Shown piece after piece: positions 56,863 through 59,686 of a DNA stretch of 64,000 nt. The position numbers and the translations under genes were made by a program. The stretch covers positions 4,650,001 to 4,714,000 of the forward strand of contig NZ_CP062983.1 in NCBI RefSeq assembly GCF_015500095.1, given 5' to 3'. The notes under the pieces are model-generated. The model had not been told where the DNA came from and did not search any database. It worked only from the letters and a program-made list of their open reading frames with translations. Numbering within the stretch: position 1 is the first letter of the stretch; every line of letters starts with the position of its first letter. This DNA is from Phototrophicus methaneseepsis (GTDB taxonomy: Bacteria > Chloroflexota > Anaerolineae > Aggregatilineales > Phototrophicaceae).

Positions 56863-58206
56863 TCAGATATTCACCATTTCCGTAATCTTCGCCGCTGCAT
56901 CAGCGATGGAAACCGTCGCTTCTTCGCCATCACGCAGCCGCTTGAGGCCAACTTTGCCCTGGGCGATCTCCTCTGGGCCAAGCGTCGCCACCAGCGGGAT
57001 CCCCTTCTTATCTGCATAGCTGAACTGCTTACCTAGCTTAAACTTGCTGTCGCTCATATAAAGCTCTGTACGGATGCCCGCTGCACGTAAAGTCGCCGCC
57101 AGGTTAGCTGAAGCTGCCTGCGTGTCATCATCGAAGACTGTCACCAAGACATCGACCACGGTTGCAGAAACCTGTGCCGGGAATAAATCCAGTTCGGTCA
57201 TAATGTCGATGATGCGCTCAATACCCAGGGACATGCCCACCGTTGGCAAGCTTTCGCGCCGGAACAAGCCAATGAGTTCATCATAGCGACCGCCCCCCGT
57301 GATGCTGCCCAGGTTTGGCTCTTCGATGGTTGTCTCGAAGATGGGCCCGGTGTAATAACTCAAGCCGCGTACCATCGTGAAGTCGAAGGCATAAGCTTCT
57401 TCAGGCACATTAAGGTTCGCCAGGTGGCTCGCCATCTCACGCAATTCCTGGATGCCCTTCTGTGCCGCTTCGATGTGTCCCATCGCTTCTTCAACGACAT
57501 CAAGGTTTTTCACACCTGGCTCATGCGATTGAATCAGTTCCATCATGCGCCGCACCGCTTCAGCCGGGATACCCCGTTCGACCAGTTCTTTTTCGACGCC
57601 ATCCGCGCCGATTTTGTCAAATTTATCCACACTGCGATACAGGTCCGGCAGCTGAGAATCCGGCACGCCAGAATAAACACCCATGCCCGTCAGCAGCTTG
57701 CGATTGTTGATCTTGATGATCGGCTTAGGCAGGTTGAGCTGCACATAGACACTGTGCATCACGCTGATGATCTCGGCGTCGGCTTCCATCCCCGCCACAC
57801 CGACGATATCCGCATCACACTGATAAAATTCACGGTAGCGTCCCTTTTGTGGGCGCTCGCCACGCCATACCGGGCTAATCTGGTACCGCCGGAATGGAAA
57901 GTTCAGGTCATTTTCGTATTGGCCCACCACGCGCGAAAGCGGCACGGTCAGGTCATAGCGCATGGCGACTTCGTCGCTTTTGCTGCGCCCGTGCTGCGCG
58001 CTGTAGATGAGTTGCTCCGCATCTTCGCCATATTTGCCATAAAGAGTCTCGCGCATTTCTAAAACAGGCGTCTGTAACGGCTCATAGCCGTACATCTGGA
58101 AAACACGCTCAACGGTATTGATCACGTACTGACGTTTGAGCATATCCGCTGGCAAAAAATCGCGGAAGCCTTTCGCCAGGCGGGGTTTAATCTTCGTCTG
58201 GGCCAT
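56863..58206 (-). CDS. hisS: Histidyl-tRNA synthetase
   Basis: 447 aa, class II synthetase. Motif 1 region 'GYEPLQTPVLEMRETLYG', histidine/ATP-site 'MRYDLTVPLSRVVGQYENDLNFPFRRYQISPVWRGERPQKGRYREFYQCDADIVG' (motif 2), HisA 'GLSYYTGPIFET' and motif 3 'TGGGRYDELIGLFRR'. A C-terminal anticodon-binding domain (about 350-440) follows. It charges tRNA-His. The gene has a leader of about 200 nt holding a His-rich short frame and a terminator hairpin, so expression is probably attenuated in response to charged tRNA-His (see findings). Confidence 0.97.
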   Translation of the reverse strand: MAQTKIKPRLAKGFRDFLPADMLKRQYVINTVERVFQMYGYEPLQTPVLEMRETLYGKYGEDAEQLIYSAQHGRSKSDEVAMRYDLTVPLSRVVGQYENDLNFPFRRYQISPVWRGERPQKGRYREFYQCDADIVGVAGMEADAEIISVMHSVYVQLNLPKPIIKINNRKLLTGMGVYSGVPDSQLPDLYRSVDKFDKIGADGVEKELVERGIPAEAVRRMMELIQSHEPGVKNLDVVEEAMGHIEAAQKGIQELREMASHLANLNVPEEAYAFDFTMVRGLSYYTGPIFETTIEEPNLGSITGGGRYDELIGLFRRESLPTVGMSLGIERIIDIMTELDLFPAQVSATVVDVLVTVFDDDTQAASANLAATLRAAGIRTELYMSDSKFKLGKQFSYADKKGIPLVATLGPEEIAQGKVGLKRLRDGEEATVSIADAAAKITEMVNI

Positions 58207-58272
58207 TTTTTCACATCCTTGTTGATGATTTATCGCTGTAAGTCATTTGTAAACGGAAAGTCGTCTGTAAAT

Positions 58273-58299
58273 AAAAAAAGCGCGAACCAACGTCGCGCC
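58273..58299 (-). terminator. Attenuator terminator in the hisS leader
   Basis: Minus strand: GCGCGA, loop CGTTGGT, TCGCGC, then T7. It ends 66 nt before the hisS ATG and lies downstream of the hisS promoter, so it can only act on the hisS leader transcript or on read-through from the radical SAM gene. Confidence 0.85.
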
Positions 58300-58329
58300 T
58301 TCAGGTCTCGCTGTGACGTCAGTTAACGC

Positions 58330-58377
58330 TTATAAATGGCTGAAATGATGGCCGAAGCCGTATTCAATGATCATCAT
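58330..58377 (-). CDS. Candidate His-rich leader peptide of hisS
   Basis: A 15-codon frame encodes MMIIEYGFGHHFSHL then TAA, with His at positions 10, 11 and 14 (all CAT). It begins about 30 nt after the predicted transcription start and ends 31 nt before the attenuator hairpin. The RBS is weak (AAGAA about 4-8 nt before the two ATGs). I know of no protein homologue and propose a regulatory role only, as in the his-operon leader of enterobacteria. Confidence 0.65.
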   Translation of the reverse strand: MMIIEYGFGHHFSHL

Positions 58378-58412
58378 GCATTCTTGGTGACGCTAACTTT
58401 GCAATTAGTAAC

Positions 58413-58441
58413 AGTATAGGCAAACCAACCTCAAATTGCAA
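58413..58441 (-). promoter_or_regulatory. Promoter of hisS
   Basis: Minus strand: TTGCAA, a 17-bp spacer, then TATACT. It places the transcript start near 58405, just before the leader frame. Confidence 0.65.
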
Positions 58442-58567
58442 CATCATGAGCGAATGCCCATCCCTCCCCCACGTCCAGAGATGGGCACTCGAATCCTACA
58501 GTATTTTGCTGTGCAGTCGAAATCCCACCACGGAAGCAAGCAACAGCCCTGTAGGCGTGTATTATTT
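58442..58567. other. Region between the radical SAM gene and the hisS promoter
   Basis: It contains an inverted repeat TGCCCATC/GATGGGCA (58455-58462, 58480-58487) that could end the radical SAM transcript, though it lacks a T tract. No gene is supported. Confidence 0.4.
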
Positions 58568-59686
58568 TTAATTCACAGCATCCACGCTAATGAGCGAGCG
58601 GGTCTGAGGATCATAAGCACAGAATGGCTCCTCAGCCATGTAATTACCCGTCGTACCATAGGCGCGTGCGCGGCAGCCACTGCACAGATTCTTGAACTGG
58701 CAGATGCCACATTTGCCTTCGAGCTGGTCTGGATCGCGCAATTGTTGGAAGAGAGGGCTATCCTGCCAGATGTCAGCGAAGTTCTCATTGCGGATGTTGC
58801 CAGCGGCCACGGGGAAATACCCACATGGGAAGATTTCCCCACGATGTGAGACGAAGCAAACACCCGTCCCGGCCAGGCAGCCTTTCGTCGCAGCATGCAT
58901 AGATGGATGCCCATGCACTTGGCGATCGTGGCTAGCGGGCAGTTCATGCTCAACACCGTTCCGGCGTTCCTCCGCACGGCGGGTGCGCATAACGCGGAAA
59001 TAATGGGGCGCACACGTCGCCTTAAGCTGTAACTCCGGTTCCTGCTGCTCCACATCGTATAACCAGTTCAAGATGCGTTCGTATTCCTGTGCGCTGATCA
59101 TCTGCTCTTCAGCGATAGAGACGCCACAGCCCACAGGCACCAGCAAAAACAGGTGCAAGCCAACGGCGTCAATCTCTTTAGCCAGCGAGCGCATGGATTC
59201 CATCTGGGCTTCATTATGCTTGGCAACGGTTGTATTGATCTGCACAGGTAAGCCCACATCGCGCAGTGCCTTAAAACCCCGCTTGGCCGCCTCGAACGAC
59301 CCTGCAAGGCCCCGGAACATATCATGCGTGGCTGCGTCGGAGCCATCGAAAGAGATACTTACGCGCCGCACGCCAGAATCTTTAATCCGCTGCGCCACCG
59401 CATCATCAATCATCGTGCCATTGGTTGCCAGGGCGACAGGCAGCCCCGCATCCGATGCATAACGTGCGATCTCATAAATATCAGGCCTAAAAAGTGGCTC
59501 ACCGCCAGAAAGCACAAAAACCGGGCGACCTACAGCAGCAATCTGGTCAATCAGTTGAAAAGATTCTTCAGTTGTTAAATCCTGAGGCGTCAACTGGTCA
59601 GCAATCGTAACACGCCGGCAGTGAATGCATTTTAAGTTACAACCGGCGGTCGTCTCCCAGAAGACAAGGCGTGGCGCTGGATACAT
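58568..59686 (-). CDS. Radical SAM/SPASM protein, AhbD/NirJ-like
   Basis: 372 aa. The radical SAM cluster motif is 'TTAGCNLKCIHCRR' (CxxxCxxC) near residue 15, with the glycine-rich SAM region 'VFVLSGGEPLFRPDI'. The C-terminal SPASM part has Cys in 'GCLAGTGVCFVSHRGEIFPCGYF' and 'CGICQFKNLCSGCRARAY', enough for one or two auxiliary 4Fe-4S clusters. This layout matches the group containing AhbD (decarboxylates Fe-coproporphyrin in alternative heme synthesis) and NirJ, as well as peptide-modifying enzymes. With no other ahb/nir genes or small precursor peptide nearby, the exact role is open. AGGGG precedes the ATG. Confidence 0.87.
   Translation of the reverse strand: MYPAPRLVFWETTAGCNLKCIHCRRVTIADQLTPQDLTTEESFQLIDQIAAVGRPVFVLSGGEPLFRPDIYEIARYASDAGLPVALATNGTMIDDAVAQRIKDSGVRRVSISFDGSDAATHDMFRGLAGSFEAAKRGFKALRDVGLPVQINTTVAKHNEAQMESMRSLAKEIDAVGLHLFLLVPVGCGVSIAEEQMISAQEYERILNWLYDVEQQEPELQLKATCAPHYFRVMRTRRAEERRNGVEHELPASHDRQVHGHPSMHAATKGCLAGTGVCFVSHRGEIFPCGYFPVAAGNIRNENFADIWQDSPLFQQLRDPDQLEGKCGICQFKNLCSGCRARAYGTTGNYMAEEPFCAYDPQTRSLISVDAVN

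Follow-up and report, generated by a model that had tools for sequence, protein, structure and literature searches.

A candidate histidine leader-peptide attenuator upstream of hisS in Phototrophicus methaneseepsis and its relatives

The leader region of hisS is very probably a ribosome-mediated transcription attenuator that tunes hisS to the charging of tRNA-His, as judged from comparative sequence analysis and modelled folding. A sequence-only reading of this DNA had proposed histidine leader-peptide attenuation of hisS, and the proposal is now supported by the recurrence of His-His codons in relatives, by a covarying antiterminator, and by a ribosome position that switches the predicted fold. 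From the sequences we infer the start of transcription, translation of the leader, stalling, read-through, and the response to histidine. Transcription would begin just upstream of the leader frame. With charged tRNA-His plentiful, the ribosome would reach the stop codon and cover the antiterminator strand that starts there; with this strand covered, the terminator would fold and transcription would end before hisS. With charged tRNA-His scarce, be it through histidine starvation or through too little HisRS, the ribosome would stall at His10-His11, leaving the antiterminator strand free to pair with the loop and the 3' arm of the terminator, and hisS would be transcribed.

The elements of the region were located in the window, which is the whole stretch of 64,000 nucleotides that was analyzed (Table 1). 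The region had been described as a promoter, a 15-codon frame with His codons, a hairpin with a T7 tract, and 66 nt from that tract to the hisS ATG (58206), and every element and distance was confirmed by direct reading. The antiterminator strand (58331-58315) is a new part, absent from that description. The leader His residues are at codons 10, 11, and 14, and no clear Shine-Dalgarno sequence is found at the leader ATG of the present genome. An overlapping mini-frame, ATG CAT GAT GAT CAT TGA (MHDDH; 58364-58381, minus strand), begins 4 nt ahead of the leader ATG and has two His codons; it is probably due to chance.

Table 1. Features of the hisS leader region, with positions in the window
Feature	Position	Strand	Basis
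-35 element TTGCAA	58436..58441	-	Direct reading; TTGCAA-17-TAYACT in 18/46 leader-bearing sequences, including the present genome
-10 element TATACT, spacer 17 nt	58413..58418	-	Direct reading
Leader frame MMIIEYGFGHHFSHL	58330..58377 (ATG 58377; TAA 58332-58330)	-	15 codons; His-His leader in 46/135 genomes
CAT CAT, His10 and His11, predicted sensing codons	58345..58350	-	Direct reading and codon-by-codon fold profile
Third CAT, His14, probably too late for sensing	58336..58338	-	Fold profile
Antiterminator 5' strand AAGCGTTAACTGACGTC, starting within the leader stop codon	58315..58331	-	Folding, pairing, covariation
Antiterminator 3' strand GACGTTGGTTCGCGCTT, comprising the inner end of the terminator 5' arm, the loop, and the 3' arm	58278..58294	-	Folding, pairing, covariation
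Terminator hairpin GCGCGA-loop-TCGCGC	58280..58298 (GCGCGA 58298-58293, TCGCGC 58285-58280)	-	Reading, terminator scan, covariation
T7 tract of the terminator	58273..58279	-	Direct reading
hisS, histidine--tRNA ligase, 447 aa	56863..58206	-	Protein family matches

The product of the downstream gene matches TIGR00442 with 391.8 bits (cut-off, 286.75), and in a profile search of the whole genome, a single contig of 5.63 Mb, hisS was the sole match above that cut-off. The closest named relatives of this HisRS come from Anaerolineae or Chloroflexi MAGs, which points to a member of the Anaerolineae and not to a Firmicute. The gene upstream of hisS encodes a radical SAM/SPASM protein (PF04055, PF13186), and the next gene beyond it encodes a DinB_2 protein (PF12867). 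The radical SAM/SPASM gene (58568-59686, minus strand) is closest to heme b synthase AhbD, at 466.7 bits, under the cut-off of 500.

Within the window alone the leader elements are weak: 3 kb of it hold two promoter-like sites (2.9 expected) and five terminator-like sites (3.0 expected), and the stability of the leader fold is not better than that of shuffles (z, -0.75). The significance of the elements thus comes from comparison across genomes. In the order, hisS was detected in 142 of 154 genomes (E 1e-60), and the upstream stretches of 135 of these were compared, the other seven being three without a gene start and four that were not retrieved. The scan required a leader of 6 to 45 codons with adjacent His codons followed, 15 to 95 nt on, by a hairpin of -9 kcal/mol or lower and a T-run. 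Such a His-His leader with a terminator precedes hisS in 46 of the 135 genomes, spread over 26 of 51 genera and five of eight families, and the scan was not passed by the remaining 89 regions. By family, the carriers number 32/89 (f1), 2/5 (f2), 6/15 (f3), 4/4 (f4), 0/1 (f5), 2/2 (f6), 0/10 (f7), and 0/9 (f8); in genus g17 they number 1/34. Two loci with a particular reason for failing were counted as misses, namely L171, whose contig offers just 86 nt upstream, and L008. In the latter (genome G006), a six-His leader, MIIFNIHPHQHHPHSH, lies about 190 nt before hisS with no recognizable terminator; either this copy has degenerated or it works by another mechanism.

The same scan was passed by 5 of 2,700 dinucleotide shuffles and by none of the 135 reverse strands. 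When 20 amino acid doublets were compared in leader frames with a terminator, HH was found 47 times, RR 24, AA 22, LL 17, and SS 17; the 47th HH case (L137) was removed by hand, as its frame resembles part of an upstream gene. Together, the shuffles, the reverse strand, and the doublet control rule out a chance origin of the His frame. An earlier pass over distinct upstream regions, in which L137 and a few repeats from the same genome were included, had given 36 of 97 versus 2 of 1,940 base shuffles. Conservation of the His codons with the hairpin in relatives had been set as a test of the proposal, and His-His indeed keeps reappearing in peptides that otherwise differ.

The promoter recurs as well. 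Of the 46 leaders, 18 are preceded by TTGCAA-17-TAYACT (TATACT or TACACT), 33 by a looser promoter, and 39 by a -10-like element no more than 110 nt away; the corresponding counts in base shuffles are 0, 6, and 177 of 2,300. The distance from the stop codon to the T-run has a median of 51.5 nt and a standard deviation of 5.2 nt over the 46 sequences; the standard deviation of the distance from the T-run to the hisS ATG is 26. Since the 46 leaders carry 2 to 6 His residues each, the frame might also be read as encoding a small His-rich peptide with a function of its own, such as metal binding, the terminator being incidental. We regard this as exceedingly improbable, because the residues outside the His cluster vary, the lengths range from 9 to 37, and the frame ends at an almost fixed distance ahead of the terminator.

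Outside the order, 57 genomes of the class were sampled, 18 of them with a HisS match at E 1e-40, and four of these 18 hisS loci passed the scan (L332, L343, L345, and L346), a count obtained with no shuffle control. Three of these four have a HisRS 35 to 36% identical to that of the window. Five carriers (G041, G047, G080, G108, and G115) have a HisRS just 35 to 36% identical to the present one, and so the switch is not bound to one HisRS lineage. This suggests that it persists or arises anew across HisRS types.

In the minimum-energy fold, AAGCGTTAACTGACGTC pairs with GACGTTGGTTCGCGCTT. Many sequences have the stop codon within the antiterminator strand, as TGACC or TAACC, with GGTC or GGTT as the pairing partner. 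Covariation was scored in an alignment of 24 of the 32 sequences then available, from which eight whose linker or terminator looked different were left out (L015, L033, L044, L072, L121, L135, L136, and L139), so that the counts for both helices are favored by this choice. In the antiterminator helix, 77.3% of the cells are paired and 6 of 11 pairs have changed on both sides; its covariation score of 0.347 was reached in 0 of 500 shuffles (0.236) and fell to 0.106 or less when the helix was slid, and two of the five measures were not above the shuffles (double-change pairs, 82/500; pair types, 256/500). For the terminator helix, the 99.1% of paired cells, the double changes in 4 of 9 pairs, and the score of 0.325 (0.236 in shuffles, 0/500 as high; 0.166 or less when slid) are partly built in, as the hairpin was a criterion of selection. 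An alignment-free comparison kept all 32 sequences, with the terminator of L139 mis-set. There, the pairing of the linker with its own terminator was better than that of dinucleotide-shuffled linkers (mean z, -1.68; n = 32), and the own terminator had an average rank of 7.0 among the 32 versus 15.5 expected.

These results bear on the reading in which the hairpin does no more than end the upstream transcript, hisS is expressed from a promoter further down, and the short frame is present by chance. A second promoter-like site at 58253-58225 would suit it, as would the terminator-like hairpins before hisS in some relatives without a His leader (L024 and L026). However, the His-His leaders recur at an almost fixed distance to the terminator, a recurring promoter precedes the leader, and the antiterminator covaries, and we consider this explanation very unlikely.

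For an attenuator acting through the ribosome, the geometry was examined in all 46 sequences by folding the RNA that lies ahead of the ribosome, with the front edge of the ribosome assumed to be 13 nt past the first base of the A-site codon. In the present genome, the predicted probability of the terminator was 0.96 when the A site contained the stop codon and 0.00 when it contained His11. Codon by codon, it stayed at 0.00 through codon 12, rose to 0.31 at codon 13, and reached 0.94 at His14. With the edge set at 11 nt it was 0.00 at codon 13, and with the ribosome at His14 it was 0.61, 0.94, and 0.96 for edges of 11, 13, and 15 nt, respectively. Since the terminator stays off through codon 12 and is high at His14, sensing should fall to His10-His11, with hardly any contribution from His14.

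Over the 46 sequences, the mean difference between the stop and the His-His positions was 0.459; shuffling the part of each sequence that separates the His codons from the terminator reduced it to 0.029, the largest of 40 replicate means being 0.088. Clean switching was seen in 22 of the 46 at 13 nt; the others either retained the terminator in both states (21 sequences) or had it unfolded in both (3 sequences), and the two carriers of family f2 showed no switch in this folding. Edges of 9 to 17 nt gave 19 to 23 switching sequences. Without a ribosome, the terminator probability in the present genome varied with the start that was assumed, from 0.36 to 0.84, and of the 22 clean switches 10 terminated and 12 did not; a protector helix, which would bring termination without translation, is not uniformly predicted.

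In the model, the antiterminator forms wherever the ribosome stalls ahead of codon 13, which is what attenuation through slow leader translation as such, without His-specific sensing, would also produce. Against this, HH is the commonest doublet in terminator-followed leader frames (47, the next being RR with 24), and we hold a switch blind to histidine to be highly improbable. Sensing of tRNA-His charging by the translated leader agrees with what the analysis found of the parts of an attenuator: a short frame in which codons cluster for the amino acid that the downstream gene is concerned with, an antiterminator that excludes the terminator, an intrinsic terminator between leader and gene as a sequence prediction, and a ribosome position that chooses the fold in silico. 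The anatomy, the recurrence of the His codons, the covariation of the two exclusive predicted helices, and the fitting geometry can all be traced in the sequences.

A covariance model of the region gave one match in the present genome at E 0.01, and this match lies before hisS. In 61 genomes it gave 20 matches below E 1e-7, distributed over 19 genomes and each located before hisS or a hisS fragment (G002 has two, the second before a hisS fragment); there were also 8 weaker matches at E 0.002 to 0.01, and the statement on gene context covers those below E 1e-7 only. As the model was built from 24 sequences mostly of these genomes, the result shows specificity and is not an independent discovery. 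A match in a genome of another family (G287) was rejected: it is a terminator ahead of an apparent pyruvate phosphate dikinase gene, and no His frame accompanies it. The class-wide search with the model covered 396 genomes and was insensitive because 13 candidates per genome were scored, and a plasmid collection gave no match.

A T-box riboswitch reading uncharged tRNA-His directly would be another way of sensing the same signal, and T-boxes do occur in these genomes: one precedes trpE in all 13 loci given to Rfam (the present genome and 12 relatives; 18 trpE loci in all), and the trpE T-box of the present genome (100.3 bits; L301 1076-1350) served as a positive control for the T-box model. 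Before hisS, however, the T-box core is missing and the leader is just about 130 nt long. No Rfam family matched at the gathering threshold in the whole window; at E up to 10, positions 58150-58560 gave only three chance-level matches far under the cut-offs, with neither a T-box nor a his operon leader among them, and the stretches around the hisS start of 20 relatives gave no match at the cut-off to Rfam families including the T-box. We see next to no chance that hisS is under T-box control here. With a T-box on trpE and a His leader on hisS, both types of sensing would coexist in one genome.

Leaders of this kind were also sought before other genes. No Trp leaders (WW) were found before trpE in 18 genomes and no His leader before the presumed hisZ-hisG of the present genome. 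For pheS, the search for Phe leaders (FF) covered 21 genomes and gave four matches in three loci, one of them in the present genome (L327); they look incidental. An HH frame with a hairpin before hisD of the present genome (L260) was rejected because it resembles the end of an upstream gene; a stretch of it is shared with the frame before hisD of G004 (L262). Before hisD of G039 (L258 1206-1372), a 39-codon frame with HYHH is followed by a terminator and is either a leader or the end of an upstream gene. In the hisG loci of relatives, 4 of 19 have a His-rich leader (4 to 7 His) and a terminator directly before hisG (G037, G044, G038, and G043; loci L287, L291, L280 on the plus strand, and L282 on the minus strand, respectively), and none of these four genomes has such a leader before hisS.

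Tentatively, we raise the possibility of a class-wide histidine attenuator of the Anaerolineae that precedes either hisS or hisG, depending on the lineage, while T-boxes are retained in the phylum for Trp. About half of the clean switchers (12/22) would need no protector helix, the stop codon being part of the antiterminator strand: a terminating ribosome alone would mean off, and an untranslated leader would mean on.

Leader-peptide attenuation is known already, including for synthetase genes, and it is the phylum that is apparently new. Among the matches listed from the titles and abstracts of open PubMed Central, a collection with most subscription journals outside it, none reported that hisS is controlled by leader-peptide attenuation in Chloroflexota. 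If the present reading is true, this control of a tRNA synthetase gene would extend to that phylum, whose amino acid sensors so far, in the portions of the literature consulted, are glycine riboswitches (PMC3766115) and T-boxes, the latter reported from Dehalococcoides for Ile and Trp (PMC2494555). The two sensors of tRNA charging would stand side by side in one genome, a His leader on hisS and a T-box on trpE. The patchy spread, the carriers with 35 to 36% identical HisRS, and the hisG leaders elsewhere make an exchange of sensors between genes testable.

The his operon leader (hisL) of enterobacteria has clustered His codons, seven in all, in a short frame. The hisS leader resembles it in the clustered His codons, the mutually exclusive antiterminator and terminator, and the ribosome position as the predicted sensor. 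It differs in that it would control hisS and not a biosynthetic operon, has three His (2 to 6 in relatives) instead of seven, starts its antiterminator strand at the stop codon, has a protector helix that is not uniformly predicted, and has no Rfam match. Closer in the gene concerned are the His leader peptides predicted on hisS* and hisZ of bacilli, where a T-box serves the main hisS (Naville and Gautheret 2010, PMC2965389). The sequence-only reading knew of no described His leader on hisS in this kind of organism; none was found for Chloroflexota, and for hisS-family genes of bacilli such leaders had already been predicted in that paper (PMC2965389). The two cases, as described, share a His leader peptide and a terminator before a hisS-family gene, whereas the bacilli belong to another phylum and carry the leader on paralogs and the present genome on its only hisS (PMC2965389). 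Attenuators were predicted on trpS and leuS of Streptomyces in a paper that also cites pheST of gamma-proteobacteria (PMC1262725); likewise, as far as described there, a synthetase gene is placed under the leader of its own amino acid, with other amino acids and phyla (PMC1262725). Finally, the His attenuators predicted on Firmicutes his operons (PMC9413887) belong to biosynthesis operons, hisS being unnamed in the main text of that paper, and they are, as described there, like the present leader in having 3 to 5 His codons and a terminator with an antiterminator, outside Proteobacteria (PMC9413887).
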